Of a stretch of DNA of 64,000 nt, positions 12,421 through 47,620 are shown in pieces. The first letter of the stretch is position 1, and every line of letters starts with the position of its first letter. This DNA is from Candidatus Liberimonas magnetica (GTDB taxonomy: Bacteria; Elusimicrobiota; Endomicrobiia; Endomicrobiales; JAFGIL01): assembly GCA_020523885.1 (NCBI GenBank), contig JAJAPY010000007.1:62001-126000 (forward strand), in the 5' to 3' direction. The notes below the pieces were generated by a model. That model was given only the letters and a program-made list of their open reading frames with translations. It did not search any database and was not told where the DNA came from. Made by a program: the position numbers and the translations under genes.

Positions 12421-12435
12421 AAATTGGATAATGTA

Positions 12436-12464
12436 TTGAAATTTAGTTATAAATAAACTATAAT
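12436..12464 (+). promoter_or_regulatory. Promoter of AbiE-type cassette A, predicted leaderless
   Basis: TTGAAA at 12436-12441, a 17-bp spacer and TATAAT at 12459-12464. The ATG at 12471 lies 6 nt after the -10 hexamer, so the transcript should begin at or next to the start codon. The same spacer (ATTTAGTTATAAATAAAC) is conserved base for base before cassette B at 45402, suggesting a bound operator. Confidence 0.75.
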
Positions 12465-12470
12465 TCATAT

Positions 12471-13265
12471 ATGAACACCAATACTTATTCATTATTACAG
12501 GTAAGGGAAGTTTTTCATATAGAGTTTTTACGGCTTTTCGGTAAGAAAATAAAGGCTTCGAGTTATACGCTAAAAGGAGGCGTCAACCTGCGTCTTTTTT
12601 TTAAAAGCGTGCGTTATTCAGAAGATATGGACCTGGATGTAAGCGGTATCCAGGCGCACGCGTTGAAAGACGCCGTTATGAACGTTCTTCAGACTAGTTC
12701 GTTTGTGCATTCCCTCACGACCTTCGGGATAGAAAACATTATCCCACCTGATATTGCTAAAGCAAAACAGACGCAAACGACACAGAGGTTTAAAATTCAT
12801 CTTATTACCTCTCGCGGCGAAGATCTTTTTACCAAAATAGAGTTTTCCCGCAGGGGCACATCTGGCAACGCCGTAGTACAGCCGGCGGACTCTGAGGTTT
12901 TAAGAGCATATAAGCTTTCTCCCTTAATAGTGCCCCATTACGACACGAATTCTGCTATACTGCAAAAAATAGGCGCTCTTGCTAACAGGACGGTCATTCA
13001 GGCAAGAGACATATTCGATCTGCATGTTTTAAGTTCACAGTTTGTTCCGGGTTCTATTAAGAGTGGAGAAGTAGACAAACAGGCCGCTAAAAAGGCATAT
13101 GATAATTTGTTTACAATTTCTTTTGGACAGTTTAAGGATACGGTGGCCGGTTATTTGTCGTATGAGGACCAGGGCGTATATAGCAACCCTTCGGTGTGGG
13201 ACGAGATAAAGCTTAAAACAGCAAAATTCATAGAGGAAGACATATGCAAAATTTCTCTGTCCTGA
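12471..13265 (+). CDS. AbiEii-type nucleotidyltransferase toxin, cassette A
   Basis: 264 residues of the AbiEii/AbiGii toxin family. The nucleotidyltransferase core is visible: GG at 36-37 (LKGGVNLRL), then RYSEDMDLD at 48-56, with acidic residues D52, D54 and D56 for metal binding. AbiEii proteins are GTP-dependent nucleotidyltransferases that arrest growth or cause abortive infection when not balanced by their antitoxin. The partner gene overlaps it by 22 bp downstream. Order is toxin first, the reverse of the textbook abiEi-abiEii order. A second copy, about 85-90 percent identical by eye, is at 45431. The start is supported by the promoter, which leaves no room for another. Confidence 0.88.
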   Translation: MNTNTYSLLQVREVFHIEFLRLFGKKIKASSYTLKGGVNLRLFFKSVRYSEDMDLDVSGIQAHALKDAVMNVLQTSSFVHSLTTFGIENIIPPDIAKAKQTQTTQRFKIHLITSRGEDLFTKIEFSRRGTSGNAVVQPADSEVLRAYKLSPLIVPHYDTNSAILQKIGALANRTVIQARDIFDLHVLSSQFVPGSIKSGEVDKQAAKKAYDNLFTISFGQFKDTVAGYLSYEDQGVYSNPSVWDEIKLKTAKFIEEDICKISLS

Positions 13266-13872: not shown

Positions 13873-13930
13873 GGATTTGTTGAAGTGGCATTTTTGAATC
13901 CGGAGTTGTTTTTTAAGCTGGCCAATATTA
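13873..13930 (+). pseudogene. Fragment of a sugar-phosphate isomerase gene
   Basis: Read from 13873 the sequence gives GFVEVAFLNPELFFKLAN, matching GFVEVAFVNPELFLKLDN inside the intact isomerase at 42554; the DNA also matches with few changes. There is no start codon context and the match stops after about 55 nt, so this is a remnant. It begins only 6 nt after the antitoxin stop. Confidence 0.7.
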
Positions 13931-15222: not shown

Positions 15223-15470
15223 AAGCGAATAATACCGGGGGTTAGGGGTAAGAACGCCGGTCTCGAAATCATAAAAGACAAAAAACTAACTTCTGACGAA
15301 AAGTAATCCTACCGACGCTAAAACCGATAAAATCAATTTGTCCCAATTTGTAGCATTTGCCCCTATTTTGTCTATGAGATGGACACCAAATGGACACCTA
15401 AAAGCAAGTGTTTATTTCTTTTCGCTGATGAAAACGTTTTAGTAAATAATATACAAAATGGTAATATATG
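15223..15470. other. Non-coding spacer with paired TTTGTCCC/GGACACC boxes
   Basis: No gene seen. It holds AATTTGTCCCAATTTGTAGC (15335-15354) and GGACACC twice (about 15391-15408). These resemble the repeated TTTGTGACC boxes at 20681 and GGGACA boxes near 45140, all near cassette or element borders. They may be remnants of recombinase arm-type sites; that is inference. Confidence 0.4.
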
Positions 15471-20784: not shown

Positions 20785-20791
20785 ATAAATT

Positions 20792-20833
20792 GGAGAGGTG
20801 GCCGAGTGGTTGAAGGCGCCGGTCTCGAAAACC
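20792..20833 (+). pseudogene. Truncated tRNA-Ser (5' half, to the anticodon stem)
   Basis: 42 bases identical to the first 42 bases of the intact tRNA-Ser at 47056. Identity ends just after the anticodon loop, at ...CTCGAAAACC, where the sequence turns to TACCC. The acceptor 3' strand, variable arm and T arm are missing, so it cannot be a working tRNA. Confidence 0.85.
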
Positions 20834-23277: not shown

Positions 23278-24635
23278 GACAATATCTAGCATATAAACCA
23301 AGCGGAGTGGATTGGTTGGGAAAAATTCCAATTGGTTGGGAACCTATTAAACTAAAATATATTTCTAACAGAATTACTAAAGGAACTACGCCTACAACAG
23401 TTGGTAAAGCATTTGTAGATAATGGGATTAATTTTATTAAAGTGGAATGCATATCAGAAACTGGAACTATTATTAAAGAAAATTGTGCATTTATTGATGA
23501 AGAAACTCATAATATTTTAAATAGGTCACAATTGAAAAAAGGTGATGTTATAATTGCTATCGCAGGAGCTATCGGAAGAGTTGCTATAATTGAAGATGAT
23601 ATTGTTCCTGCAAATACAAATCAAGCGGTTGGAATAATAAGTGTAAAAAAGAAAAAGTATAATTTACAGTGGGTCAAATATGTATTAAACTCCGATGCAG
23701 TAAAGCAATATTACAATATTGAAATTGTGAAAACAGCACAAGCAAACATAAGTTTAGAAAATGTTGGATTGGCAATTTTGCCTACTCCTTTGCTACCTGA
23801 ACAAAAATCTATAGTTTGTTTTCTTGATTATACAACAGGACAGATAGATACTTTTATTGCAAACCGCCAAAAGCAGATTGAATTGTTGAAAGAGCAACTG
23901 CATTTCAAAATAAACGAAGCAATTACTAAAGGTATCAATACTAAAGTACAATTCAAAGCTGCTGATATTAAATATGTCCCTGAAATACCGGAGCATTGGG
24001 ATATAAGAAAATTCAAGAGTCTTACTTCAATTCTTACCTGTGGTGTTGCGGCTACCCCAGAATATGTTGATGAAAATGAAGGTGTTGCATTCCTCTCAGC
24101 ACAAAATTGCAGACCTTTTGCAATGGACTTGTCTAAATATAGTTATATAAAACCAGCACTACACAAGCAGCTTACAAGATACAAAAAGCCACAAAAAGGT
24201 GATGTATTAGTAACCAGAGTTGGTGCGGGAATAGGACAGGCTTGTATAATTGATACGGATTTAGAATTCTCTGTTTATGTAAGTTTAACTCATATCAGAC
24301 CAAACAAGGAAATATTAAGCGAATATATAGTCTATTTTTTTAATACTGAATATTGCTATCAATTAAATCACGAAGGCACAGTTGTTGGTGGCGGGCAAGG
24401 AAACTTAAATGTAAAGAATGTTGAACGCTACCGTATACCGTTACCACCTATTGAAGAACAAAAAGAAATTATTAAATACCTTGATAAGTACAGAACAGAA
24501 ATGGATACCCTTATCTCCAAATACCAAAAGCAAATAGATTTAATGCAGGAATATAGAGCATCCTTGATCAGCCAAGCAGTAACAGGAAAAATTGATGTGA
24601 GAGATTGGCAGCCAAAAAAGAAGGAGAAACAATAA
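23274..24635 (+). CDS. hsdS: Type I restriction-modification specificity subunit
   Basis: 453 residues with the two-repeat plan of HsdS: target-recognition domain 1 (about 1-160), conserved spacer helix 1 (PLLPEQKSIVCFLDYTTGQIDT, then a long heptad-like helix), target-recognition domain 2 (about 230-390) and conserved helix 2 (PPIEEQKEIIKYLDKYRTEMDT) to the end (SLISQAVTGKIDVR). It sets the bipartite DNA target for methylation and cleavage. Start ATG overlaps the hsdM stop by 4 nt, and the stop overlaps the hsdR start by 1 nt, so all three are translated together. No second hsdS or inversion site is visible nearby. Confidence 0.95.
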   Translation: MRQYLAYKPSGVDWLGKIPIGWEPIKLKYISNRITKGTTPTTVGKAFVDNGINFIKVECISETGTIIKENCAFIDEETHNILNRSQLKKGDVIIAIAGAIGRVAIIEDDIVPANTNQAVGIISVKKKKYNLQWVKYVLNSDAVKQYYNIEIVKTAQANISLENVGLAILPTPLLPEQKSIVCFLDYTTGQIDTFIANRQKQIELLKEQLHFKINEAITKGINTKVQFKAADIKYVPEIPEHWDIRKFKSLTSILTCGVAATPEYVDENEGVAFLSAQNCRPFAMDLSKYSYIKPALHKQLTRYKKPQKGDVLVTRVGAGIGQACIIDTDLEFSVYVSLTHIRPNKEILSEYIVYFFNTEYCYQLNHEGTVVGGGQGNLNVKNVERYRIPLPPIEEQKEIIKYLDKYRTEMDTLISKYQKQIDLMQEYRASLISQAVTGKIDVRDWQPKKKEKQ

Positions 24636-30032: not shown

Positions 30033-33000
30033 ATGATAGATTGGTTAAAAGTTAATAATGATAAGACATTTCAAAATTTAGTTAATCACCTCTTTTTCTT
30101 GGAGTGTCCTTCAACTTATGGTTTTGTGCCGTTTAGCCCTTACATAGGCAAAGATGGGGGGTGGGATGGTAAATACGAAGGATATTATCCAAAAGAGAAT
30201 TTAGAAGGTCGGTATTGTATCCAGGCAAAATATACTAAGCATAATTTAAAAGCTGCTATGCCGTCGCTAACAAAATGGGTAAAGACAGAATTAATAAAGG
30301 CTAAGAAAAATAAGGTTGATCATCTTAGATTAGCGACATGTGCACAATTGCGAGACGAACATATCACTAAAATTGAAGCATTAAACAAAAGGCATGTAAA
30401 AACTTTCAAGATTTGGCATGGGCAAGACTTAACACTGAGGATTGAACAGGAGCCATTTTTACGTTTATATTATTTTGATGGTCCGTCAGTACCGCTATTT
30501 GTTCCTCCAACTATATATTTTGAAAAGGTAGAAACAAGACTTGCAAATATTACTGTTCCCCAAGGTATTAAAAGTGTAGAAGACCGCATTAATGAGGTTA
30601 TCGCATTTCTCAATGACAATAGTAATAAAATATTTGTGCTTAGCGCTTTCGGAGGGTTTGGGAAGAGCCATTTCTTAAGCCTATTTCCAAAAAAAGTTGC
30701 TAATTCTAAAATAGACAGGGAAGTATGGTTTATTCGAGATGGTGTAAGGAATGTTCAAGATGCAATGCAGGATGAAATTGGTGTTAGAGATAGTGCTCAT
30801 AAAAAGCATAAATATGTCTTTGTATTAGATGATGCGGACCGCGCGGGTGATGTAAAAGATATTTTGAATTGCATAAATAAGACAGGAATAGATGCAAAAC
30901 TTGTCATCACGCTAAGAACAATAGGATTGTCTAATTTAGAAGAAATTATAGATTCTATTCGGTGTAGGGATTTGACCATTTATAAATCTATTCCTGAGTG
31001 GTCAAAAGACGAACTAAAAACATTATTAAGGGCAGCAGCGCAGAAAGATAAGATTGATAATGAAGATGAAATAATTAGAAAGTATCCGAATCCCTATTTT
31101 ATTATACAAATCGGATTAAACATAAAAGGTCGGAACAGTTTTGATTTACAAACTTTTAAACAATCCATTATTCAATCTTTACTAAATGACGCGAGAAAGA
31201 TTTTGCCTACAGAAAAGGGAGATGTCGGGAATTTGCTTTTTCATCTAGCTTTGATTACTCCAGTAAACATTAATGACAGCCAAACAATTACTAAGCTATC
31301 AAAAATAGTAGATATATCTAGTAAAAACATAGAGAAAATATTGAATAATTTTGACAAAAATGGAGTTCTTAGGAAAATCGGTTCAGTTTTACGATTTATC
31401 CCAGATATGATTGGTGATGTTTATCTATTAGAAACGATGCAGAAAATTGGAGAAAATGAACGAAAAGAAGCTTTCCTGTATTGGCTTGACACTCATTCGA
31501 AAAATATATTTTGTAATTTGGGCGCGACTTTGCAGTACGGTAATCCAGATTGTTTGGTCCCTGTGGTAACAGATATTGTTTCCGGTTGGATAGACAATGC
31601 TACTAAATATGGCGGTTATGAGAAAAAACAAATATTAGAAAATCTAGAAGAGATTTGTTACTTGGTACCCGAGAAGGCATTAGATATGCTTTGGGCTTAT
31701 ATAAATACTCCTGAATTGAGCACTGATGATTATGGCCTTATCATTATACGATTAATTCATAGCGATTGTGAGCGACAAAAAATAGTAGATATATTAGAAG
31801 AAATACGAAACAAGGTAAAGCTTGGCACTTATGACAATTACAAGCCGAATACTCTAGTCAGGGATGCTGTTACCCCTTTAAAAAACAATATTGATAGGAA
31901 AATAATTCCGATTTTAGATATTATAGAAAAATCATTAAAAGGATTGCATCCGATAGTTGAATTTTCAAAAGCGGCTTTAAAGGAAGTGTTGGCTTCAGCG
32001 CATGAATGGACATATTCTACCTATGATAGCGTGCAATTTAGCAGTCGTTTTCTTATGGTAAACGAGCCGGTCTTGTTGATGCGAAAAAAATCAATTGAAA
32101 TAGTTAAACAAATGTTGTTGGATGTTCGCCCTGAAGTGCGTTTAGCGGGTATTGATATCGTAAAAGAAATAGGCGAATGTCATTTTGGTCCAGGTGTTTC
32201 ATCTGATATCCCTTTAAAGGATAGAATTGATGATGAGAGAAAGGAAATGCTAGAGTTTATAGACAAGAACAATCTCATAGAAAAAGAAAAAGATTATCAT
32301 GTTTTATGTTTATATGAAGATTTGTTGGTTAGTTGGTGGGCTCTTCAGAAAGTTTCGGATGAAATATCTTTGAAGCTTATTAATCATTTTAAACATGACC
32401 CTGAATATAGGATTTTTAGATACTATACTTCCAGGTATGATATTACAGATGATATTCAGGATAAATTTAAAAATGCTCCTGTAAAAGACAGATGGCCATG
32501 GACTGTAGATAATATAATGAGAAAATGGTATTTGACAGTTAATGATTTTGAAAAAGATGCAGTAGCTTTAAATAATAAATATTCTTCTTCAGAAGACATC
32601 GCAATATTTCTTGCTAAATTAGGAAAATCGGTAACTGTTTCATCTGCTAATGCATTATTTTTACGTGCGTGGTTTAAACAAAATCCAGAAGTATTTAGGC
32701 ATATACGAAATCAAAAAGAATTATGGGCAAATATTCCATTAGCATTCAAATATACGATTACTCAAGATTTGGTTGGGAAATATCCTGAAATGGCGAAGAT
32801 AATTATTGATGAAGTTTTGTTGACTCCGCATATATCCACAGATGAAGCAAAGATAGCTATAGACATTCTTTCGTATGACATCCCATCTCTTAATAAAAGT
32901 GAAATTATTAAGACGGTGGCAGAAAAGAATATTGATGATTTAAATTTGTCAATATTGGAAAGAATGCGCTTTATCGAAGACAAGATTTCAGCCAAGTCTA

Positions 33001-33839
33001 TGGCAGTTATTGTCTTAAATGTGATGAACCACTTGAGTTCTAGTTTTCAAGCCAAAGCGATTGATTATATTGCATTTATTTTGCACAACAAAAATAGTGA
33101 TTATGTTAGTGATTTCTTTGGCATAACTCATGATGTTATTTGTCAAGCTCTTTTACATAAAAGTGAGCTGGATTACCACGATTTTGAAGTGTCAGCCATT
33201 CTATTTAACAAGGCGGGTGAGTTTTTTAGTTTTATTGAAGCCCGCCTGGAGAAGGAAAGTAAAATAAAAACATATTCAGAATATAAGGCTATCCCTTATA
33301 GGGGTATTGAATTTGCAAGCAAGTTTATCAATACAAAAGAGAGCTTTGTTATTGCAATAAAAAAGGCACTTGAATGGGAAAGGAAATATAAAAATAATAT
33401 TAGTTTCAGTGTTTCTAAGTTATTTGAACAATTTATGTCCTTACGGGATGAATCAGGAACTTTGTATTTTGATAATGTTAAAAGCGAATTTTATAATAAA
33501 AATGACTTTTTAGAATATCTGCAATGCTTATTTAGTCTTCCATTAAATAAGAAGAATCTTGGCGCATTCAAAGAAGCTATTGGGAAAAGCGCGGAATTGA
33601 GATACGAAGAAAAAATGGCAGAGTTACTTAGAAGTAAAATATACCCAGAAGATGGTTGGAGTTCTTCTGTTGGGCAAATACCACCCGCTTTTATTGAAAA
33701 AAAGGAATGTTTTGAAGAATTAAAAAATATTGCTCCTGCGGGGAAGTTAAGAAATGCACTGGAAGAATGTGTGCGTGGTGTAGATAACATGATTAACCAA
33801 CATAAAAAAGAAGAAGAGAATCGCTCTCATTCACGGTAG
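30033..33839 (+). CDS. Large nuclease-NTPase, PD-(D/E)xK + STAND-like ATPase (Avs-like)
   Basis: 1268 residues in three parts. About 1-150: a restriction-nuclease-like domain with GKDGGWDG (D41, D45) and IQAKY (Q64-A-K66), the Mrr-type active-site pattern. About 195-420: a P-loop ATPase with GGFGKS (207-212, K211) and Walker B VLDDADR (D266, D267), like STAND/nSTAND NTPases. About 450-1268: a long helical C-terminal region without obvious motifs, as in sensor domains. This nuclease-STAND-sensor plan is that of antiviral Avs proteins, which recognise phage proteins and then cleave DNA. The sensor part is not recognised, so it may be a new type. It lies downstream of hsdMSR and the HEPN-motif gene. 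Confidence 0.75.
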   Translation: MIDWLKVNNDKTFQNLVNHLFFLECPSTYGFVPFSPYIGKDGGWDGKYEGYYPKENLEGRYCIQAKYTKHNLKAAMPSLTKWVKTELIKAKKNKVDHLRLATCAQLRDEHITKIEALNKRHVKTFKIWHGQDLTLRIEQEPFLRLYYFDGPSVPLFVPPTIYFEKVETRLANITVPQGIKSVEDRINEVIAFLNDNSNKIFVLSAFGGFGKSHFLSLFPKKVANSKIDREVWFIRDGVRNVQDAMQDEIGVRDSAHKKHKYVFVLDDADRAGDVKDILNCINKTGIDAKLVITLRTIGLSNLEEIIDSIRCRDLTIYKSIPEWSKDELKTLLRAAAQKDKIDNEDEIIRKYPNPYFIIQIGLNIKGRNSFDLQTFKQSIIQSLLNDARKILPTEKGDVGNLLFHLALITPVNINDSQTITKLSKIVDISSKNIEKILNNFDKNGVLRKIGSVLRFIPDMIGDVYLLETMQKIGENERKEAFLYWLDTHSKNIFCNLGATLQYGNPDCLVPVVTDIVSGWIDNATKYGGYEKKQILENLEEICYLVPEKALDMLWAYINTPELSTDDYGLIIIRLIHSDCERQKIVDILEEIRNKVKLGTYDNYKPNTLVRDAVTPLKNNIDRKIIPILDIIEKSLKGLHPIVEFSKAALKEVLASAHEWTYSTYDSVQFSSRFLMVNEPVLLMRKKSIEIVKQMLLDVRPEVRLAGIDIVKEIGECHFGPGVSSDIPLKDRIDDERKEMLEFIDKNNLIEKEKDYHVLCLYEDLLVSWWALQKVSDEISLKLINHFKHDPEYRIFRYYTSRYDITDDIQDKFKNAPVKDRWPWTVDNIMRKWYLTVNDFEKDAVALNNKYSSSEDIAIFLAKLGKSVTVSSANALFLRAWFKQNPEVFRHIRNQKELWANIPLAFKYTITQDLVGKYPEMAKIIIDEVLLTPHISTDEAKIAIDILSYDIPSLNKSEIIKTVAEKNIDDLNLSILERMRFIEDKISAKSMAVIVLNVMNHLSSSFQAKAIDYIAFILHNKNSDYVSDFFGITHDVICQALLHKSELDYHDFEVSAILFNKAGEFFSFIEARLEKESKIKTYSEYKAIPYRGIEFASKFINTKESFVIAIKKALEWERKYKNNISFSVSKLFEQFMSLRDESGTLYFDNVKSEFYNKNDFLEYLQCLFSLPLNKKNLGAFKEAIGKSAELRYEEKMAELLRSKIYPEDGWSSSVGQIPPAFIEKKECFEELKNIAPAGKLRNALEECVRGVDNMINQHKKEEENRSHSR

Positions 33840-33922: not shown

Positions 33923-34741
33923 TTATACCATCACTCGCTCGCATTTCATTGTAACTAAATCAACCACCACGTAGACCAGATCCTCTGTTTGTCCTGCCTG
34001 GATGCAGATAGTTGAATCTAATTGAGCCTTCCAGCAGCCTGTCATGGCAGGTGATTCATGAATATGACCGTGAAGGGTTAACAGAGGCTGATTGTCTCTG
34101 ATGAAAAAATACAATGCTTCAGAACCAACTCTTTCTTTATTTATGCAAACGTCCAGCTCTAGATTACACGGCGGCATATGAGTAACATAGATTGCCTTTT
34201 GCATATTAACCGGCCGCTCGAGTTTCTCAAGCTCTTCTTCTATTGTAGGAAGAGTTGCTACATATTGCTTCCAGTTTGGAATTTCCTTTAAACCGGTTTC
34301 TGTTGAATGCAGAGCCGTGCCTTTCTGGAATCCTATTTCACTATCCTCCGTGTCTTTCCGGCACCTATCTTTGAGTAGGAACGGATAGTCAACTACCCAA
34401 TTCATTCCGATAAAATCATACCCTTCAATTTGAATTCTACGCTGAGCGATGTTCTTGACATATTCATACCTATCGCACACTTCCTGAAACAGGTTATCAA
34501 ATACCATAAGATCATCGTTGCCAGGAAAGCATAGGTAGTGAATTCTATCGCTGTTAAAGGCCTTAAAATGCGCATTTATCTGGTTTTGGATATATTCGTT
34601 CTGGCTGTAGAGATTATTATCATTAGGGAACATATCTCCGGCGTTGATAACAATGCTGGAGCGCACTTTGCAGGCTTCTTTATAGAGCATTTCATATTTC
34701 CATGTGTTACCATGTAGATCGGAAGTTACCATTATTTTCAT
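33923..34741 (-). CDS. Calcineurin-like metallophosphoesterase
   Basis: 272 residues with the full metallophosphoesterase motif set: SDLHGN (D8, H10), NAGDMF (D36), PGNDD (in place of GNHD), VTHMPP and HGHIHE. These ligate two metals and cleave phosphomono- or diesters; cyclic nucleotides, nucleic acids or phosphoproteins are all possible substrates. GND instead of GNH removes the usual histidine that assists the leaving group in many members. Last gene of the minus-strand operon headed by a sigma factor; GAGAGGT precedes its ATG. Cytoplasmic (no signal). Confidence 0.85.
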   Translation of the reverse strand: MKIMVTSDLHGNTWKYEMLYKEACKVRSSIVINAGDMFPNDNNLYSQNEYIQNQINAHFKAFNSDRIHYLCFPGNDDLMVFDNLFQEVCDRYEYVKNIAQRRIQIEGYDFIGMNWVVDYPFLLKDRCRKDTEDSEIGFQKGTALHSTETGLKEIPNWKQYVATLPTIEEELEKLERPVNMQKAIYVTHMPPCNLELDVCINKERVGSEALYFFIRDNQPLLTLHGHIHESPAMTGCWKAQLDSTICIQAGQTEDLVYVVVDLVTMKCERVMV

Positions 34742-34772
34742 ATTTTTACCTCTCTATCGTTCTCCCTTTAGA

Positions 34773-34943
34773 TTATTTGGATAATAAATCTTTATTTTCC
34801 TTTCTTTTTTTCATTAGTTTAAAACTCTTTGACCAATTTTTTCTTGGTTCATCCTCAATCAAATACTTGTCATGATTTCTAGCCACATCTTTTTTGCCTC
34901 TAAACACTCCAATGATGCCTTTAAGTCTTATTGCTTTTTTCAT
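34773..34943 (-). CDS. Small basic protein of unknown function
   Basis: 56 residues (MKKAIRLKGIIGVFRGKKDVARNHDKYL...), very rich in Lys/Arg. The start at 34943 is chosen for AAAGGA 6 bases upstream. Not recognised. It lies between a strong hairpin (34963-34995) and the phosphoesterase gene (31 bp). The charge suggests nucleic-acid binding, but nothing more can be said. Confidence 0.5.
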   Translation of the reverse strand: MKKAIRLKGIIGVFRGKKDVARNHDKYLIEDEPRKNWSKSFKLMKKRKENKDLLSK

Positions 34944-34962
34944 GAATAATCCTTTCATCTAA

Positions 34963-34995
34963 AACACTATGCCGGTGGTTGGCCGGCATAGTGTT
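34963..34995 (-). terminator. Strong intercistronic hairpin, terminator-like on the minus strand
   Basis: A perfect 13-bp stem (AACACTATGCCGG and complement, 34963-34975 and 34983-34995) with a 7-nt loop. On the minus strand it is followed by TTTTAG. It divides the sigma-led operon: sigma and three genes lie upstream, the small basic gene and phosphoesterase downstream. It may be a partial terminator or an RNA stabiliser. Confidence 0.7.
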
Positions 34996-35009
34996 AAAGA
35001 ACATTTTAT

Positions 35010-35243
35010 TTAGATTGCTTCCATTTCCCGTTTTTGAACAGGTTTTGCATACTTTTCTTCGATAGGTCGCAGTATTTCATTTTTCAAGACGGTCAAGACA
35101 CCGCTGTTCAACACATTCTGTAACTCAAGCTTTGCTAGATTCATATCAAGACCGATCTCAGCGCAACCTGATACTGCTATGTCCATACCCTGCCCATCAG
35201 GCAGGTTAATGTGTTTTTTAACGGATATTTCCTTTACCTGCAT
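35010..35243 (-). CDS. Small protein of unknown function in the sigma-led operon
   Basis: 77 residues from the ATG at 35243. This start is favoured by a perfect GGGAGGTGATT upstream; it also lies 1 bp beyond the stop of the preceding gene. The sequence (MQVKEISVKKHINLPDGQG..., then a helical half) resembles no family known to me. Mixed charge, no membrane segment. Co-transcribed with the two paralogous proteins upstream; a hairpin follows its stop. Confidence 0.55.
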   Translation of the reverse strand: MQVKEISVKKHINLPDGQGMDIAVSGCAEIGLDMNLAKLELQNVLNSGVLTVLKNEILRPIEEKYAKPVQKREMEAI

Positions 35244-35244
35244 A

Positions 35245-35994
35245 CTAATCACCTCCCTTGGTTTTGTCGGCTCCAAACCAGCCGAGATATTTTGCTAATG
35301 CTTTATAACCATTTTTCCATACAACTTTATATACCTGTCCTACTTTTGGATTTTTAACAGTAGCCGTGTAACATTTAAAACTTTCTTTTTGTTTAAGATT
35401 GAATCCTAGGTTCTCTTTATAGAGGTTAACTTCCTTGAGTGTTCCAATCTTATGCTCTTTTCCGTTATCTTTAACAATTACAAGCACAGGATTAGTATCT
35501 ACAGGGGAAAACCTATGGAAAATAGCTTTAAATATGAGTTTCTTTGTGGGATATTCAACCTTTAACATACTATGCCGAGTTTCTTTCTTCTTGTATGTAG
35601 TAAACATTACCGGGCTTATCCAGCACCAGATATATTTTGCTTCACTTCTAAAGCCAAAAGACAGATCCCAGAATAACCTGAATGTTTTATATGGCTGATC
35701 AGTAGAAACCTCCTTGATTATTCCCTCATTGCGAAATCCTTGTTTTGATGCAACATGGAAACTGTACTCATTGCTGTTCTTGGGTTGTTTTTTGCTCAAG
35801 AACCTTTTCTGGGCTTCTTCAATACTTCCGAGGCATGGGGTTAAGCCTTCATCCCAGCCAAAGGTATGATCTATGGCAAAAGGCTCAGAACAATTCTTAA
35901 CAGCAGCAGTTATTTCATGAAATACTGCCCCATAGCCGCTAAAGGATGGTACGATGCATTTACAATACTCTTTGATTAATAATCTTTCTTTCAT
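35245..35994 (-). CDS. Unknown protein, paralogue 2 of a tandem pair
   Basis: 249 residues; not recognised. Clearly homologous to the next-upstream protein. Shared blocks: FSGxGAxFH near residue 18-26, WxWISPVMF near the middle, HRFxP, and a C-terminal YKVVWKxG followed by KYLxW. The conserved aromatic residues, His and Cys are spread over a beta-rich sequence of about 245 residues. AAAGGA precedes the ATG. The duplicated pair suggests a heterodimer or two-subunit complex (inference). Neither membrane segments nor catalytic signatures are evident. Position: third gene of the sigma-led operon, 21 bp after its paralogue. Confidence 0.62.
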   Translation of the reverse strand: MKERLLIKEYCKCIVPSFSGYGAVFHEITAAVKNCSEPFAIDHTFGWDEGLTPCLGSIEEAQKRFLSKKQPKNSNEYSFHVASKQGFRNEGIIKEVSTDQPYKTFRLFWDLSFGFRSEAKYIWCWISPVMFTTYKKKETRHSMLKVEYPTKKLIFKAIFHRFSPVDTNPVLVIVKDNGKEHKIGTLKEVNLYKENLGFNLKQKESFKCYTATVKNPKVGQVYKVVWKNGYKALAKYLGWFGADKTKGGD

Positions 35995-36015
35995 AGAATT
36001 TTCCTTTGTGCTCCC

Positions 36016-36753
36016 TTATCTGTTGGCTTCAAGCCATTCTAGATATTTTATCATCTGATCTAGTCCCAATTTCCAAACAACCTTATAAGTGTGTCCAATA
36101 GGTGGATTGTCAACCTCGATTTGAAAGCACTTAAAATGGAAATTGCCATCCATTTTAAAGGCAAAATCAGACTTTTTGTAACTAGTCTCCTTTAGTGGGC
36201 CTATTTTATCTTCATGCCCTTTTAGATCGACCTTTATCAGTTCCAGGCAATTTTCTAAAGGATAAAACCTGTGGTACATTATTTGGTAAACAAGTTTCTT
36301 TGTAGAGTATTTAACTTCAAGTGAACTTTGCTGAGTGCCAATATGGCTCAATGAACTGAACATTACGGGACTTATCCAGCCCCAGACATAAGAAGCCTGC
36401 TGTTTAGTGCCGAAATTATCTTTCCAGGATATACTGAAGGCTCTTTCTCTGTTTTTTGATTCCATTTCTTTGACGATTGGTTTTCCTCCAAATGCATCAC
36501 GAGAAGCGAACGCAAACGTATACTCGTTATTTTTTGCAGGTTGTTTCCCTGCAAGATAGTAATCATAGGCCTTTTTTACACCGATAATTTTTGCAAATGA
36601 GTTTATACTCTCGTCAGACCCAAATTTGTTCTTAATAATAAAGGGTTTCTTACCTTTATACTCTGCCAGAACAGCGTGGAATGCTGCGCCATTACCGCTA
36701 AAATACGGAAAAACGGTTTTGGTGTACTTTTTAATTAAAAAACTATTTTTCAT
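36016..36753 (-). CDS. Unknown protein, paralogue 1 of a tandem pair
   Basis: 245 residues from the ATG at 36753, chosen for CAGGAGGT upstream; an in-frame start 57 nt earlier would run back towards the sigma gene and lacks a binding site. It shares FSGNGAAFH, VWGWISPVMF, YHRFYP and YKVVWKLG with paralogue 2; the two diverge strongly elsewhere, so the duplication is old and both copies were kept. No known family comes to mind. It follows the sigma gene by 66 bp on the same strand, which makes it a likely target or partner of that regulator. Confidence 0.62.
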   Translation of the reverse strand: MKNSFLIKKYTKTVFPYFSGNGAAFHAVLAEYKGKKPFIIKNKFGSDESINSFAKIIGVKKAYDYYLAGKQPAKNNEYTFAFASRDAFGGKPIVKEMESKNRERAFSISWKDNFGTKQQASYVWGWISPVMFSSLSHIGTQQSSLEVKYSTKKLVYQIMYHRFYPLENCLELIKVDLKGHEDKIGPLKETSYKKSDFAFKMDGNFHFKCFQIEVDNPPIGHTYKVVWKLGLDQMIKYLEWLEANR

Positions 36754-36819
36754 ACTGTTGTACCTCCTGTTTAGATTTCCTACTACTGTATAGTAAACCA
36801 GTTGTGCCAAATCGGCAAC

Positions 36820-37533
36820 TTAAAGAGTGCGTAAATATTCAATTGTCTTTAACTCGATCTTTCTGACCGTTTCTTTTGAGATGTTTAAGATATGGCCAAC
36901 TTCGACATGACTCATTGGTTTGTTTAAATACCGCCTATTGGGACCTATCGAATAGCGTAGTTCTATTACTTCCCGAGACAATTTATGAGGTGCCTTTTGA
37001 TCCCTACTTAACTTAGAAAGCAAGTTATTGACTTCCATTATAAGGTACGCATTACTGTCTTCCTGACTTGGAATAATATCCTGTAATAATAGTGGATGAC
37101 CATCCTCAGTGTTGTCCAATATTATCTTTTCTAACGAATCTGTTGGATTTATGTCCTGATGTAGTTTCATTTTCTTAATACATAGCCTTCTCGAATATCC
37201 AAAGTTCTTAGAAAAAATTTCATTGAAAATATAGGCCTTTATTACTTTCGTCACATAATGATAGAAGTATCCTCGATTAAAAGAATGTTTTGAGACGGCT
37301 AAAGTTAGCGCGAGGCACCCTGTTTGGTAAAGATCCTCGAGCTGAATCCCGTATTTTTTAGAGAAGCTCATATAGCGGAACACATAGTTGCAAACAAGCC
37401 TCATTGTTCTTAAAATTATAATCTCTAATGCCTTGTCTCTGTCTTTCTTTAAAAGCTCCCTTATTTCTGTTTCGGTAAGAAGTTTTATTTGTTTAGCTTG
37501 TTGTGCAAGTGAAAAAAAGTTCAAATTGCTCAT
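36820..37533 (-). CDS. Sigma-70-family RNA polymerase sigma factor (regions 2 and 4)
   Basis: 237 residues. Region 2 is visible at about 65-115 (QLEDLYQTGCLALTLAVSKHSF...YVTKVIKAYIFNEIF), with the DLxQxGxxxL motif for core binding and -10 recognition. Region 4 is at about 180-235 (REVIELRYSI...MSHVEVGHILNISKETVRKIELKTIEYLRTL), a helix-turn-helix for the -35. No region 1.1 or 3 is clear, so it is an alternative or element-encoded sigma. AAAGGAGGG precedes the ATG. First gene of a minus-strand operon with unknown proteins; it may direct their expression or that of element genes. A terminator-like hairpin lies 38 bp upstream of the start. Confidence 0.82.
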   Translation of the reverse strand: MSNLNFFSLAQQAKQIKLLTETEIRELLKKDRDKALEIIILRTMRLVCNYVFRYMSFSKKYGIQLEDLYQTGCLALTLAVSKHSFNRGYFYHYVTKVIKAYIFNEIFSKNFGYSRRLCIKKMKLHQDINPTDSLEKIILDNTEDGHPLLLQDIIPSQEDSNAYLIMEVNNLLSKLSRDQKAPHKLSREVIELRYSIGPNRRYLNKPMSHVEVGHILNISKETVRKIELKTIEYLRTL

Positions 37534-37570
37534 TTCAATACCCTCCTTTAATTAATTTTTCGCAGAAAAT

Positions 37571-37617
37571 AAAAAACCAGTGATGCAGGTTTGATGAACC
37601 TATATCACTGGTTTTTT
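37571..37617. terminator. Long nested hairpin between divergent genes
   Basis: A 14-bp stem (AAAAAACCAGTGAT, 37571-37584, with 37604-37617) encloses a second 5-bp stem (AGGTT/AACCT, 37587-37601). Both strands end in T runs, so it can terminate in either direction. Because no gene ends here (sigma starts leftwards, the next gene starts rightwards), it would lie in a leader and may act as an attenuator. Confidence 0.65.
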
Positions 37618-37848
37618 TGTTTTACTATAAAGCAGATCCGTTCTTGGATTTTAATAAAAAGACTAAGTGTAGTTATCTGTTTTCATGATTAAATCCTCCT
37701 TACTATTACGATTAGAAAATAAAGAAATTAGTCCAAGATACATAAAACTCAAAATGATTATTTTTCTATTATTACATGAAAAAAAATTATAAATTGCGAT
37801 GTCAGGAAATGGGAAAATTTAAGTATAAATATATAGGGAGAGAAATAG
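37618..37848. other. AT-rich divergent spacer
   Basis: No gene. It should hold the promoters of the sigma operon (minus) and of the 37849 gene (plus), but I cannot pick hexamers with confidence. A GGGAG ribosome binding site (37837-37841) serves the plus-strand gene. Confidence 0.4.
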
Positions 37849-38602: not shown

Positions 38603-38782
38603 ATGGAAGATGAACTGTTAACACCCCAAGAAGTAGCTGATAACTACTTGAAATGCGATATTCGGACCCTTAGGAGATACATAAACAAAGATCTCCCTGT
38701 GGTTAGAATATCACCCAGGTGCATACGTATTCTTAAATCAGAGTTGATTAAATGGATAAATAAAAGAAAAGGAAATAGTTAG
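38603..38782 (+). CDS. Excisionase-like helix-turn-helix protein
   Basis: 59 residues: MEDELLTPQEVADNYLKCD, then IRTLRRYINKDLPVVRI, and SELIKWINKRK. This is the MerR/excisionase-type HTH_17 fold: an LTPQEVA helix, a RTLRRYI recognition helix, a small wing and a closing LIKWI helix. GGAGG lies 7 bases before the ATG. It sits just upstream of the two tyrosine recombinases, the usual place of a recombination directionality factor. Short length is normal for Xis proteins. Function inferred from fold and position. Confidence 0.75.
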   Translation: MEDELLTPQEVADNYLKCDIRTLRRYINKDLPVVRISPRCIRILKSELIKWINKRKGNS

Positions 38783-39103: not shown

Positions 39104-41227
39104 ATGAAGGGTTACGATTTGTATAAGCATTACGGTATTGAAGTGCCCGGATTTTATATTGATCCGGAGCAGGTCTACAATGCATTAAAAGAAATAATCA
39201 AGAGGAGGCCCAAAACAATGTATTACATAAAGAAGCTAATAGAATATTTAAGGAAATTAAATATCAGTATTCAGGAGTTCATATTTGCTGATCATTATAA
39301 GGACTTACTTCGTAGCGAAGATATAGCTGATAATGAAGATACAGAAATGTTTTTTAGGTATATACTCAGTTCTTTATGCAAAGACCACAAAATACTGCCA
39401 CTTTCATATGAATTATGCATTGTACCGGATTTGAAAGAGAGGTGTGATTTATATGATCTGAGCAATCTTGAGACGGGTTTGTCAGAGGCAATTGTATCCA
39501 TTTATCCTTCTTCAATCATACCAAAAAATAGCAAGGTGAGTATTCTTCAGAACACTCAGATACCTATAGTTGTTGTAAATCAGGCGAAGTTATTTTTTAA
39601 ACATTATAGAACTAATAATGTAAAAAGAGACCTTACCACTAGAACTTTAGTGAACTTCTGGTACGCGTTAAGAAAACTTACCATAGTTACGGAGATAAGT
39701 GATCTTGGTAAGTTAGATGGTGAGAATGGAGCCAAACGACTAAAGGAATACTTTGAAAAAGAAAGAACGAGAAAATTAAAAACAGGGACACTTGTTTATA
39801 AAATTAAAGGCGACTCTGACACAATAGAAAACATAAAGATATTTTTCAATACTATGTGGAAACAGCTTGGTATGGTTGAAAATCCTTTTTCGGCACTTGA
39901 TACCTCAGATTCTGTGATTATAAAGGGAGGATCTAAGATACTCGATAGACTTAAGCTCCCTTATGATAGGAGCGAATATAAGGGCACAAAAATTGTGCGA
40001 AATCAATTGCAGATTAGAGTAAAAGGCATAGATAATAATGACTTGTACATTATTCCTTGCTTTGAAAAAGATGAAATAAGATTAATAAGGGATTATATAG
40101 AAAAGAAAGAAAATTCAATAAGAAATGGTACAGAACCTGATTTGGAGAAAATGGATTTGGAAGATCTAAGAAAATATCATGAGAAAGCTCAAGGTGATTT
40201 TATTCTGGCTTTAGGCATATTTAATGGACCGCGCCCACTAGACTACAGGTGTTTAAGTTTAGAGCAAATCGGGAAATTCAGTACGGATATCAATGATCCC
40301 ATTAACGAAAGATTTTTTAATGATATTCCAACTATACAAAGTGATATAAAGGAAAATCCGCTAAAACTAAGACCCGAAAAGAGATTTTTTGGTCCTATAT
40401 TTGTTTTGTTTGCACAGATGATAAAAGCGCGCAGGATATTATGTAGACGTAAAAACAAAAATATCCAACGTGATAAAAATCGGCATATGAATGATTTGGG
40501 AGAGCCTGTTTTGGTTACAGATGAATTAGTAAGAATATCTGATTTAGTTCTTAGAAAACTGACTAGAAATACCCTTGTACGTGTAGGTTTAAATATGACT
40601 AAGGCATTAAACTCAACGATATATTTTTTAAGAAAAGCATTCATAGTATATGCACGTATGTCAGGAATGCCTCTTGAGGCTATCAGCATAGTAACTGGTA
40701 CGGATCCTAAGACCTTAATGGATTTTTATCTCTATCTTGACTTGTTAAAGGATACCAATAAGCATTTTGCGGAAAAATATTTGCCATTTCTTGGTTTTAA
40801 GCATTGTATTCCGTGTGAAGGAGTAGTAACAGATATAGTGCCGGTTGATGCTAATAGGATAAGAGAAAATGTTTTAGAGACAATTGCAAAAGAGGATGAG
40901 TGTTCTATTGATGAAGCTATTCAGATATTTGAAAAAGGGAGTCGTCAAATGTCCAGGAATATGATTCTGGATGCTATTAAAGAAAAATACATCATCGCCG
41001 TGAAAAGAAGTAATCAGTGGATAGTGTCAAAGAAAAGTATAGAGGAATTCATAGAAAAATACATAGATGTAGAAGGTATTGTAGATGTGTTTAAAAACAG
41101 GCATATGAGAATTACAAAAAGGAGGGCACAGCAGGTAATTAAAGAACAGAATATAATTCCGCTGAGATTGTTAAATAAAGTGTTTGTTGATTACAAGTCA
41201 ATATCAAGCTACCTTGATCGTCGGTAA
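39104..41227 (+). CDS. Divergent tyrosine recombinase with C-terminal excisionase-like domains
   Basis: 707 residues. Catalytic region at about 360-550: R377 in NGPRPLDYRCLSLEQI; Y507-F-L-R510; T533 in TGTDPK; tyrosine Y542. Spacing from R510 to T533 (23) and T533 to Y542 (9) equals that in the canonical integrase downstream (R305, H328, Y337), so the alignment is firm, but both active-site histidines are replaced (by Tyr and Thr). The C-terminal 110 residues hold two HTH_17-like repeats (MILDAIKEKYIIAVKRSNQWIVSKKSIEEFI and a second). AAGGAGG precedes the start. Possibly a partner recombinase or DNA-binding accessory of the integrase 18 bp downstream. Confidence 0.75.
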   Translation: MKGYDLYKHYGIEVPGFYIDPEQVYNALKEIIKRRPKTMYYIKKLIEYLRKLNISIQEFIFADHYKDLLRSEDIADNEDTEMFFRYILSSLCKDHKILPLSYELCIVPDLKERCDLYDLSNLETGLSEAIVSIYPSSIIPKNSKVSILQNTQIPIVVVNQAKLFFKHYRTNNVKRDLTTRTLVNFWYALRKLTIVTEISDLGKLDGENGAKRLKEYFEKERTRKLKTGTLVYKIKGDSDTIENIKIFFNTMWKQLGMVENPFSALDTSDSVIIKGGSKILDRLKLPYDRSEYKGTKIVRNQLQIRVKGIDNNDLYIIPCFEKDEIRLIRDYIEKKENSIRNGTEPDLEKMDLEDLRKYHEKAQGDFILALGIFNGPRPLDYRCLSLEQIGKFSTDINDPINERFFNDIPTIQSDIKENPLKLRPEKRFFGPIFVLFAQMIKARRILCRRKNKNIQRDKNRHMNDLGEPVLVTDELVRISDLVLRKLTRNTLVRVGLNMTKALNSTIYFLRKAFIVYARMSGMPLEAISIVTGTDPKTLMDFYLYLDLLKDTNKHFAEKYLPFLGFKHCIPCEGVVTDIVPVDANRIRENVLETIAKEDECSIDEAIQIFEKGSRQMSRNMILDAIKEKYIIAVKRSNQWIVSKKSIEEFIEKYIDVEGIVDVFKNRHMRITKRRAQQVIKEQNIIPLRLLNKVFVDYKSISSYLDRR

Positions 41228-42553: not shown

Positions 42554-43333
42554 ATGAAAATATCAATCAGGGCCGCTTATCCGGAAAATGGCAATTATGA
42601 TTGGGCTCAATCACTAAAAATATATGAGGAAATCGGATTTGTTGAAGTAGCATTTGTAAATCCAGAGTTGTTTTTGAAGCTGGACAACAAAGAAGTAATC
42701 AAGCCATTTGCCTCTCTAAATATAAAAGTATCATCGCTGCATCTTCCTCATTTCAGCCTTGTAAACCTGGCATTGTTTTCAGAAATATTTAAGAAAGCAA
42801 CTGATTTAGCGAAATTGCTTGATTGTCAGGATCTTGTTATCCATCCAAGTTTTGGCAAGGCACGTTCCATAGAGAACTTTATTAAGGATGAAATAGACAG
42901 CGTGCTTGAAAAGAATGGCCTTTGTTTGTGCTGGGAGACATTTGAAAGTAAAAAGAGAGTATTTGGCGGCCTTGATCCTGTTGCCCAATATTGCCAGGGA
43001 ACCCAGAACCATGGAATATGTTTTGATTTTTCACATGTGCATAAAGAACAAAAGGAAGTGATAGCAACAATTGACAGGTACCTTCCGCTCATTAAAGTAT
43101 TCCATGTTTCAAACAGAATCAAAGATACTATAAAACAACATTATCCTATTTATTATGATAAGGAAGAAGCTGCCCTTGATTTCAAAGAGATATTTACTTT
43201 TTTGAAAGGCAAACAGTACGAAGGACATCTTGTGCTTGAATATTTATACGAATTTCATGATCAATTACTTCCAGATGCGATAAGTTTGTTGTCATTTTTA
43301 ACCTACAAAAGCAAAATAAACGATAAAATGTAG
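42554..43333 (+). CDS. Sugar phosphate isomerase/epimerase-like TIM-barrel protein
   Basis: 259 residues of the AP_endonuc_2 / xylose-isomerase-like TIM-barrel family. Strands such as MKISIRAAYP, VSSLHLPHF, LVIHPSFG, LCLCWETFESK, ICFDFSHVH and LVLEYLYE carry the usual metal-ligand positions (H in LHLPH, E in WETFE, D/H in FDFSHVH, E in LVLEY). Such proteins isomerise or epimerise sugars, or are endonuclease IV relatives; the substrate is unknown. Its promoter has a palindromic operator with no adjacent regulator gene. A 55-nt fragment of a homologous gene lies at 13873, so relatives of this gene have moved within the region. Confidence 0.75.
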   Translation: MKISIRAAYPENGNYDWAQSLKIYEEIGFVEVAFVNPELFLKLDNKEVIKPFASLNIKVSSLHLPHFSLVNLALFSEIFKKATDLAKLLDCQDLVIHPSFGKARSIENFIKDEIDSVLEKNGLCLCWETFESKKRVFGGLDPVAQYCQGTQNHGICFDFSHVHKEQKEVIATIDRYLPLIKVFHVSNRIKDTIKQHYPIYYDKEEAALDFKEIFTFLKGKQYEGHLVLEYLYEFHDQLLPDAISLLSFLTYKSKINDKM

Positions 43334-44555: not shown

Positions 44556-44584
44556 GGCGCCATGCAATGGCTCATAATTGGCTC
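44556..44584. repeat. Direct repeat, left copy (29 bp)
   Basis: GGCGCCATGCAATGGCTCA and the next 10 bases match 45312-45340 with two mismatches. The two copies flank the zinc-ribbon gene and the GGACA-rich spacers. Confidence 0.7.
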
Positions 44585-44652
44585 AACGCCTCAGAGAACA
44601 TAGGGGGCATAGGATATTTCGGACATTTATCGGACATATCGGACAAGGACAA

Positions 44653-44979
44653 ATGAAGAAAAAACTAAAAAAATCGCATAACAAAAAAGATTATAAAAAA
44701 CTATTAAATAGCATAAGGCCGCTTGCTGCTCAAATCGTAAGGCTAAAAAGTGATATGAAGAAAATGGGCATGCATACAGGGGATTATGATTTAATAGAAT
44801 GTTCTAAGTGTCACTTGGCGGAAGATGTTCTTGCAGACAATAGGCTCGTAACGTTCTTTAATATTAATGTAGAAGATTTTGAAAAAGTAAAATTCACGAA
44901 ACTGAAATTTATGGAATTAAAGGATAGCTTGTTTTTGTGCCCTAATTGCGGAAACATAATTAAAGCAAAGGAATTTTAA
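44653..44979 (+). CDS. Small zinc-ribbon protein of unknown function
   Basis: 108 residues from the ATG at 44653. The frame is open for another 75 nt upstream, but that part consists of the repeated GGACA boxes and is unlikely to be coding. N-terminus is basic (KKKLKKSHNKKDYKKLL). Two CxxC pairs, CSKC near residue 45 and CPNC near 99, make a zinc ribbon split by about 50 residues. Not recognised further. It is bracketed by 29-bp direct repeats and by GGACA-box clusters, so it looks like a separate mobile cassette. Confidence 0.6.
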   Translation: MKKKLKKSHNKKDYKKLLNSIRPLAAQIVRLKSDMKKMGMHTGDYDLIECSKCHLAEDVLADNRLVTFFNINVEDFEKVKFTKLKFMELKDSLFLCPNCGNIIKAKEF

Positions 44980-45340: not shown

Positions 45341-45395
45341 ATAAATACCCCAAATGCCTCGCTAAGCACATCCTTTTCAAAAATATAACAATGTC

Positions 45396-45424
45396 TTGCA
45401 ATTTAGTTATAAATAAACTATAAT
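45396..45424 (+). promoter_or_regulatory. Promoter of AbiE-type cassette B, predicted leaderless
   Basis: TTGCAA (45396-45401), 17 bp, TATAAT (45419-45424); the ATG at 45431 follows after 6 nt. The spacer equals that of cassette A although the sequence further upstream differs. Confidence 0.75.
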
Positions 45425-45430
45425 ACATAT

Positions 45431-46225
45431 ATGAACAACAACACTTATTCATTATTGCAAGTAAGAGAAGTTTTTCATATAGAGTTTTTAAGATTTTTCG
45501 GCAAGAAGGTGAAGGCTTCAGTTTACACGCTGAAAGGAGGCGTTAACCTGCGCCTTTTTTTTAAAAGCGTACGCTACTCGGAAGATATGGACCTGGATGT
45601 AAGCGGCATCCAGGCGCATGTGTTGAAAGATACCGTTATGAATATTCTCAAGACTAACTCTTTTGTGCATTCTCTTAAAACTTTCGGTATAGAAAGCGTT
45701 ATTCCTCCGGATATTGCCAAAGCAAAACAGACGCAAACGACACAACGGTTTAAAATTCACCTTATTACTTCCCGCGGCGAAGATCTGTTTACCAAAATAG
45801 AATTTTCACGCAGAGGTACATCCGGCAATGCCATAGTAGAACCGGCTGACGCGGAGGTCTTAAGGGCGTATAAGAGTTCTCCTTTAATAGTACCTCATTA
45901 CGATACGAACTCGGCTATTCTGCAAAAAATAGGCGCTCTTGCTAACAGGGCCGTTATCCAGGCAAGAGACGTATTTGATCTGCATGTTCTAAGCTCACAG
46001 TTTGCCAAGGGGTCTGTTAAAGGTCAAGAGATTGACATACACGTTGCAAAAAAAGCTTATGATAATTTATTTACAATTTCTTTTGAACAGTTTAAGGATG
46101 CAGTAGTTGGTTATTTGTCTCATGAGGATCAGGGGGTGTATAGTACCCCCTCAGTTTGGGATGAGATAAAACTTAAAACAGCAAAATTCATAGAGGAAGA
46201 CATATGCAAAACTTCTCTGTCCTAA
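45431..46225 (+). CDS. AbiEii-type nucleotidyltransferase toxin, cassette B
   Basis: 264 residues, the same length as the copy at 12471 and about 85-90 percent identical by eye. GG at 36-37 and SEDMDLD (50-56) are unchanged. Differences cluster near residues 195-208, between the two conserved halves, and the catalytic core is untouched, which argues that both copies are under selection. Leaderless promoter as in copy A. It overlaps its antitoxin gene by 22 bp. Cross-neutralisation with cassette A is likely given the similarity (inference). Confidence 0.88.
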   Translation: MNNNTYSLLQVREVFHIEFLRFFGKKVKASVYTLKGGVNLRLFFKSVRYSEDMDLDVSGIQAHVLKDTVMNILKTNSFVHSLKTFGIESVIPPDIAKAKQTQTTQRFKIHLITSRGEDLFTKIEFSRRGTSGNAIVEPADAEVLRAYKSSPLIVPHYDTNSAILQKIGALANRAVIQARDVFDLHVLSSQFAKGSVKGQEIDIHVAKKAYDNLFTISFEQFKDAVVGYLSHEDQGVYSTPSVWDEIKLKTAKFIEEDICKTSLS

Positions 46226-47047: not shown

Positions 47048-47055
47048 GTGAATTT

Positions 47056-47140
47056 GGAGAGGTGGCCGAGTGGTTGAAGGCGCCGGTCTCGAAAACCGGT
47101 ATACTTTCGGGTATCGAGGGTTCGAATCCCTCTCTCTCCG
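47056..47140 (+). tRNA. tRNA-Ser(CGA)
   Basis: 85 nt folding as a class II tRNA: acceptor GGAGAGG with TCTCTCC (one G-T pair), D arm GCCGAGTGGTTGAAGGC, anticodon stem CCGGT/ACCGG with loop CTCGAAA (anticodon CGA, reads UCG), a long variable arm (TATACTTTCGGGTATC) typical of serine tRNA, T arm GAGGG/CCCTC with TTCGAAT, discriminator G. CCA is not encoded. Its first 42 bases recur at 20792. Confidence 0.95.
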
Positions 47141-47620
47141 TTTAGTTTTTGGTGGATATCTTCAGGGAAAATGCGATTTCTTGACTTAAAGTTTAAAAAG
47201 AGTTAAAATCTCACCATAGATGGACCAGATAAATAAAAAAGAAAGGATAATATTTGAACGACGAAGACCGTTCGAATAAATAATTTGATATAATGTTTTA
47301 AGATATTGTCAGCGCGGTACGGGCGATGCCGGTTGATATATGCAGAAGGGGGGATGTTTAATAAGGACTTAAAGCGATCCGCGTTATTACATGGACATTA
47401 AAACCCCTGACCTTCGTCGGGGAATGAATGCATAATGATGTCGCCCCTAAAGGGATTCCATTAAATTTAATTAAGAAAGTCTCTGTAGACTGCGTTATGA
47501 AAGAAGCCTCCGCTGCTTCGATTATGCTCGGCATTCTGAGTGCATCGAAAGGTCCCTGCTGGATGAGGATTTTTCTTAGAAGATAATTAATTTGGTCAAG
47601 AAGCCAGGAGATAAAAATCT
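47141..47620. other. Long spacer with two promoters and a structured leader
   Basis: No protein gene. Promoter 1: TTGACT (47181-47186), 17 bp, TAAAAT (47204-47209). Promoter 2: extended -10 TGA-TATAAT (47286-47294). An imperfect inverted repeat TTTGAACG/CGTTCGAA (47253-47276) lies between them. From about 47300 the sequence is richer in G and C, with a stem CCCC(T)GAC-CTTC-GTCGGGG (47404-47422) and smaller hairpins, then AGGAGA before the ATG at 47621. Either a 320-nt structured leader of the response-regulator gene or a separate small RNA; no Rfam family recognised by eye. Confidence 0.5.

Follow-up and report, generated by a model that had tools for sequence, protein, structure and literature searches.

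A sigma-factor-led gene module behind a terminator recurs beside recombinase genes on integrative elements of the Elusimicrobiota

We analyzed a 64,000-nucleotide (nt) stretch of the genome of Candidatus Liberimonas magnetica, here called the window, which comprises bases 62001 to 126000 of contig 7 (C7) in an assembly of 3.39 Mb and 29 contigs. At positions 33923 to 37533, six close-packed genes on the minus strand lie within an integrative element bounded by a tRNA gene and a partial copy of it, and all six open reading frames (ORFs) were found in the order and on the strand given by an initial annotation of this DNA, which had also placed them in an integrative element (Table 1). They encode, from the upstream end, a sigma-70-type factor, two paralogues (A and B), a 77-amino-acid (aa) protein, a 56-aa protein, and a calcineurin-like metallophosphoesterase. 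Paralogues A and B, whose family we named P, are 40% identical and share the sequence blocks (FSGxGAxFH, WISPVMF, and YKVVWK) by which the initial annotation had recognized them as a diverged pair. As that annotation had also stated, only the sigma factor and the phosphoesterase were recognized in Pfam, PHROGs, NCBIfam, and PADLOC; A, B, and the 77-aa protein had no convincing match in these four libraries, and the 56-aa protein had none in Pfam and PHROGs. A known family for the paralogues, the finding that the annotation had named as fatal to its proposal, was thus looked for and not found. The sigma factor matched Pfam region 2 (E 3.5e-6) and region 4 (E 3.6e-9), both over the curated cutoffs, as well as RpoD/SigA in a PDB profile search and PHROG 351 (E 9e-23). 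Our central observation is that the sigma factor, P, and the 77-aa protein travel together beside recombinases on two kinds of element, with a strong terminator just ahead of the sigma gene. The family libraries and literature searched yielded no account of this module, the P family, or the 77-aa protein.

Table 1. Operon genes and associated features of the surrounding integrative element, with positions in the window
Feature	Position	Strand	Basis or remark
Calcineurin-like metallophosphoesterase, 272 aa, metal-ligand motifs intact	33923..34741	-	PF00149; PADLOC PDC-S10; alignment
56-aa protein, highly basic, net charge +12	34773..34943	-	Homologues in C9 and C24
Relic of TM2 (small membrane-protein gene), 50 bp	34960..35009	-	Local alignment to C9 TM2 gene
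77-aa protein	35010..35243	-	In all five module copies; purifying selection
Paralogue B, P family, 249 aa, basic, double beta-sandwich	35245..35994	-	AlphaFold2 model, fold comparison, net charge +17
Paralogue A, P family, 245 aa	36016..36753	-	No match in four family libraries
Sigma-70-type factor, regions 2 and 4, 237 aa	36820..37533	-	Pfam Sigma70_r2 and r4; homologues head all five module copies
Intrinsic terminator, 19-nt stem with 18 pairs, then T run	37570..37616	-	Same site in five of five module copies
Short ORF MKTDNYT with strong ribosome site upstream	37663..37686	-	Corresponding C9 site is a sigma relic
HTH_17 (excisionase-like) protein of recombinase set	38603..38782	+	Pfam
707-aa protein of recombinase set	39104..41227	+	Homologous to 723-aa (C9) and 827-aa (G081 C20) proteins
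Tyrosine integrase, 369 aa	41246..42355	+	Phage_integrase, E 5e-26
tRNA-Ser(CGA) 5' half, duplicated, left element end	20787..20833	+	46/47 bases (98%) match to 47051-47097
tRNA-Ser(CGA), intact, right element end	47055..47141	+	ARAGORN, Rfam

A search of the same genome with paralogue A found P at six places on four contigs, and the P domain occurred in 3 of 83 genomes of the order and 4 of 340 genomes of the phylum. Five copies are led by a sigma gene: those on C7 (the window), C9, and C24 of this genome (G000, of which C8 and C23, mentioned below, are further contigs) and those on C20 and C7 of Elusimicrobia bacterium RIFOXYA2_FULL_47_53 (G081), a member of the same taxonomic order. Conservation of the gene set elsewhere, on which the initial annotation had staked its proposal, was thus found in four further sigma-led copies. 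Read from the sigma gene onward, the window copy consists of sigma, P, P, 77-aa, TM2 relic, 56-aa, and phosphoesterase genes; C9 of sigma, P, P, TM1, 77-aa, 61-aa, TM2, and phosphoesterase; C24 of sigma, P, 77-aa, TM1, 59-aa, TM2, and phosphoesterase; G081 C20 of sigma, P, 77-aa, and TM2; and G081 C7 of sigma, P, 77-aa, TM1, and TM2. Constant in all five are the sigma gene, one or two P genes, and the 77-aa gene, whose order is kept in two genera and with two sets of recombinase genes. The small proteins TM1 and TM2 are hydrophobic and probably span the membrane two or three times, and TM2 is intact in four of the five copies. The window copy is reduced, having lost both of these genes of the full module and retaining only the TM2 relic between the 77-aa and 56-aa genes; a candidate second terminator within the operon (34960-35009) was rejected, as the site is this relic. 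The phosphoesterase is present in three copies (the window, C9, and C24), and a single P gene occurs in three of the five, which does not bear out the paired complex that the initial annotation had envisaged.

All five sigma-led copies adjoin recombinase genes, which are of two kinds. The C7, C9, and G081 C20 copies have an integrase of 369, 356, or 362 aa with a partner of 707, 723, or 827 aa, respectively, and the C24 and G081 C7 copies have a 520-aa protein, putatively a serine recombinase by its sequence, with a tyrosine recombinase of 641 or 670 aa. Because the module occurs on elements with two recombinase sets, it is not the tail of one integrase cassette. Restriction or methylase genes lie on the other side of the module in C7, C9, C24, and G081 C20; no such cargo was seen at G081 C7 within the stretch read. 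We also observed proteins with DUF4062 and HATPase_c_4 domains near two elements (L010:78-1529 and L042:4957-6450), a recurrent cargo-like gene.

Comparison of the C7 and C9 copies indicated clear purifying selection on four genes, as judged from nonsynonymous (dN) and synonymous (dS) divergence: paralogue B (dN 0.063, dS 0.32, dN/dS ~0.20), the 77-aa gene (dN 0.092, dS 0.66, dN/dS 0.14), the phosphoesterase gene (dN 0.084, dS 0.55, dN/dS 0.15), and the sigma gene (dN 0.26, dS 2.2, dN/dS 0.12, with dS nearly saturated). The 56-aa gene was not clearly under such selection (dN 0.25, dS 0.49). Because this comparison shows purifying selection, the genes are not chance ORFs. Identity between C7 and C9 is 88% for paralogue B but just 25% between A and the other C9 paralogue, so A and B are not one co-inherited heterodimer; either the P pairs arose by separate assembly, or their rates of divergence differed greatly. 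What stands of the self-regulated system proposed by the initial annotation is therefore a recurrent sigma-led set on mobile elements that is under purifying selection, without the fixed phosphoesterase and the paired complex.

These findings also bear on whether the operon is a unit at all. If separate genes had simply gathered at a recombination hotspot beside the integrase, their content would vary, and the membrane proteins, the 56-aa protein, and the phosphoesterase do come and go; decayed copies on C23 and upstream of the C9 sigma gene fit such gathering as well. The fixed sigma-P-77-aa order in five of five copies from two genera and two recombinase sets, the purifying selection, and a terminator in the same place speak against it, and we regard this explanation as very improbable and as largely refuted by the conserved gene order. 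The C23 copy is a degenerate sigma and P pair (L012:8928-9537). On C9, the terminator and the intact sigma gene are preceded by decayed remains of the 5' end of an older sigma gene (L010, ~7770-7930), which looks as though recombination had replaced the start of the module.

A hairpin followed by a T run lies upstream of the sigma gene in all five module copies. The window terminator ends ~40 nt upstream of the sigma start codon, and the distance from T run to start codon is 43 nt in C7, 47 nt in C9, 19 nt in C24, 53 nt in G081 C20, and 24 nt in G081 C7. Block-shuffled controls gave 0 to 0.2 such terminator sites per region. Among other genes of at least 100 aa in nine stretches, 2 of 154 had a comparable site no more than 90 nt upstream, as against all five sigma genes (Fisher P 3e-8, which makes the case look too strong since kin copies were counted as independent); the C24 sigma gene was added to this count by hand, its ORF having been extended to an earlier start. 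Read by eye, the C24 and G081 C7 hairpins keep their pairing through base changes on both sides. In C7, C9, and G081 C20, the terminator does not belong to the upstream gene because that gene points away from it. In C24 and G081 C7, the 19 and 24 nt that follow the T run are too few to hold a promoter. These findings are most simply explained by transcription of the operon from farther upstream, with attenuation. Attenuation through a leader peptide was considered and rejected, as the short ORF in C7 matches the decayed sigma start in C9 and has no clear equivalent in the other copies; this ORF (MKTDNYT) may instead be what is left of the beginning of an older, decayed sigma copy.

An AlphaFold2 model of P, built for paralogue B from an alignment of nine sequences, had a predicted local distance difference test score of 81 and a predicted template modeling score of 0.82, and showed two sandwiches of beta strands plus a helix at the C terminus. 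Among the top structural matches from Foldseek and VIA-align were ribophorin I of the oligosaccharyltransferase (VIA Z 12-13 over ~195 residues; root mean square deviation, 4.7-4.9) and, with Z ~10, the N-terminal domain of M1 aminopeptidases; both of these double beta-sandwich domains are non-catalytic. Given the high deviation and the low identity (~5-13%), the likeness is one of fold only; unlike these proteins, P is basic and has neither a peptidase domain nor a predicted membrane segment. P is not an M1 aminopeptidase, since at 245-249 aa it contains the beta-sandwich part only and has no Pfam peptidase match. All P proteins are basic (net charge +7 to +17, isoelectric point 9.2-9.7), although host proteins are somewhat basic too. 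We rejected P as a phage structural protein, with no PHROG match and no match among viral structures below E 0.001. A search for relatives of P outside the phylum gave none among viral contigs, plasmids, or phage records, and a scan of genome contigs with short, near-exact patterns, which distant relatives elsewhere could escape, returned only RIFOXYA2_FULL_47_53.

The phosphoesterase matched PF00149 (E 7e-9) and the PADLOC candidate PDC-S10 (E 8e-16), although the latter match may apply to phosphoesterases in general; no publication on PDC-S10 was found. Its metal-ligand motifs (DLH, GD, GND, H, and GHIH) are invariant in an alignment of four copies. It is well conserved between copies, absent from both G081 copies, and alone on C8; within the phylum, 21 of 340 genomes carry it, with no constant neighbor. 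The mobilizable plasmid pHRM2a of Desulforapulum autotrophicum has two copies, of which the closer is 53% identical. These plasmid copies, in a sulfate-reducing host, lie at L049:1382-2212 and L050:10493-11299, and one has an altered C terminus without the GHIH motif. LexA-like repressors lie near the phosphoesterase gene at two loci (L011:12668-13291 and L041:11520-12209). The phosphoesterase is thus an optional accessory that is widespread by itself, and not the fixed part of a system that the initial annotation had taken it to be. Its presence on pHRM2a and on integrative elements, with intact metal ligands, would suit a counter-defense role in which it clears second messengers: partnered by P through binding, it would remove host immune nucleotides and thereby let the element become established. 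Since the enzyme is missing from two of five modules and has no fixed neighbor in other genomes of the phylum, and since this role leaves the sigma factor, P, and the 77-aa protein unexplained, we consider it quite improbable.

The integrative element extends from ~20,817 to 47,081 (26,264 bp) and reaches beyond the integrase. Its placement at tRNA-Ser(CGA), the single tRNA that ARAGORN found in the window, rests on the repeat of the tRNA 5' half at the left end, where the 126 bases preceding the tRNA recur as well in diverged form. Such a half repeat at element borders is the usual footprint of integration in the anticodon region, and the combination of a tyrosine integrase with a direct tRNA repeat at both borders identifies an integrative element at a tRNA gene. 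GC content is 0.35 within the element and 0.42 on either side. Its left part contains, in order, type I restriction-modification genes, two uncharacterized genes, the gene for a 1268-aa STAND-type NTPase, and the sigma operon; to the right of the operon follow a divergent uncharacterized gene, the HTH_17, 707-aa, and 369-aa genes, and those for a TIM-barrel protein, a PDC-S02-type nuclease-like protein, and an AbiE pair. No relaxase, secretion, capsid, or terminase gene was recognized among the scanned element ORFs, several of which match nothing; the scan left out the two ORFs at 23274-24635 and 44578-44979. The 1268-aa protein (30033-33839), which adjoins the operon, weakly matches nSTAND NTPases, and its N-terminal part resembles a restriction-type nuclease, making it a candidate Avs-like defense protein. 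We found three copies or fragments of tRNA-Ser(CGA) (15255-15273, 20787-20833, and 47055-47141), and the locus looks like a recurrent integration hotspot with tandem accretion. AbiE-type genes lie to the left of the left border (12421-12720) and in the element (45381-45680), as do a TIM-barrel gene fragment at 13873-13925 and its counterpart at 42635-42687, which suggests an older element or a tandem duplication.

We also found the P domain at the C terminus of a 369-aa protein in G332, from another family of the phylum (L023:38-1147, which begins 38 bases in from the end of its contig; E 9e-10 with a profile from which this protein had been left out). Ahead of P lies a TIR-like domain, which by itself matched TIR_2 (E 0.005, 17.6 bits; cutoff, 28) and CAP12-PCTIR (E 0.007, 16.9 bits; cutoff, 24.7), both below threshold. 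Two candidates for further TIR relatives were rejected, one being a chance match in a miaA-like gene and the other a possible TIR-like protein whose N-terminal part differs and has no Pfam match. The G332 protein resembles the TIR effectors of Pycsar and CBASS-type systems (PycTIR and TIR-STING; PMC11224242, PMC9402430) in its layout of an effector followed by a sensor, but the libraries searched gave no match of P to STING or to a cyclic-nucleotide-binding family, and the P proteins of the module lack the TIR half.

This position of P, in the place of the sensor, lends weight to the main rival to a control function, in which the operon is itself an anti-phage system carried as cargo: P would sense a phage or stress molecule, the sigma factor would amplify expression upon infection, and the membrane proteins, with or without the phosphoesterase, would kill or arrest the cell. 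Its neighbors (restriction-modification, AbiE, PDC-S02, and STAND-type genes) and the PDC-S10 match of the phosphoesterase are consistent with such a system. However, the TIR call is under the Pfam cutoffs and the TIR-like half was modeled by AlphaFold at low confidence, and the window copy has lost both membrane-protein genes while its remaining genes are still constrained. The module also adjoins recombinases on all five elements whatever their cargo, a placement that is typical of backbone genes. Altogether, we view an anti-phage role as possible but somewhat unlikely.

That mobile elements can carry a sigma factor of their own is known in general, with the sigma-like genes of Tn916-type elements as an example. 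As in those elements and in phages, the element studied here brings its own sigma-70-type factor with regions 2 and 4, but here the factor heads a conserved operon of undescribed proteins behind a terminator, and the scanned ORFs contain no recognized transfer or capsid gene. The MZA anti-phage system likewise includes a defense-linked sigma-70 gene, and the window sigma factor weakly matches MzaA; at 38.5 bits against a cutoff of 800, and with no other Mza match among the proteins scanned, it does not belong to that system. The tRNA-borne integrative defense islands include tycheposons and gamma-mobile-trio islands, with which the element shares a tRNA target, tyrosine recombinases, and defense cargo, but the match to GmtY of the latter is weak (E 3e-5, 23.5 versus 340 bits).

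Taken together, our analyses give an even chance that the operon is one copy of a conserved control module in the backbone of a family of defense-carrying integrative elements of the Elusimicrobiota. In such a module, the operon would be mostly off until a trigger released it by antitermination or read-through, and the element sigma factor would then redirect RNA polymerase to element genes, be it those of its own operon, the recombinases, or the cargo. The basic double beta-sandwich of P may bind an anionic ligand (nucleic acid or nucleotide) as a sensing or scaffold part, in a task that the 77-aa protein and the small membrane proteins would share, with the phosphoesterase as an optional accessory. 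Several observations weigh against this proposal. The gene upstream of the terminator is co-directional in C24 and G081 C7 and could own the terminator; pairing of an antiterminator with the 5' arm of the terminator was no better than in shuffled leaders; and no promoter motif common to element genes rose above shuffles in 19 upstream regions. In G078, a P gene follows an integrase and an excisionase-like gene, with a next gene faintly like that of the 77-aa protein; this placement favors the proposal, but the P gene there has no sigma gene with it. The G332 fusion points to immunity and not to element control.

Control and defense functions are compatible, as a switch that turns on defense cargo would fit both. 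The more specific combination, in which a terminator-gated element sigma factor and a new double beta-sandwich ligand sensor, one that also serves as the sensor of a TIR effector, turn on defense cargo upon ligand binding, seems unlikely to us. As a warning, the phosphoesterase is the most recognizable enzyme of the set, yet it is among its least constant parts. If the operon is indeed a control module, defense islands of a poorly studied phylum would bring their own transcription switch, by which element and defense genes could be kept silent and then turned on jointly. Through the P family, this kind of switch may be connected with TIR-type immunity, and P is small enough for direct tests of ligand, DNA, or RNA binding.

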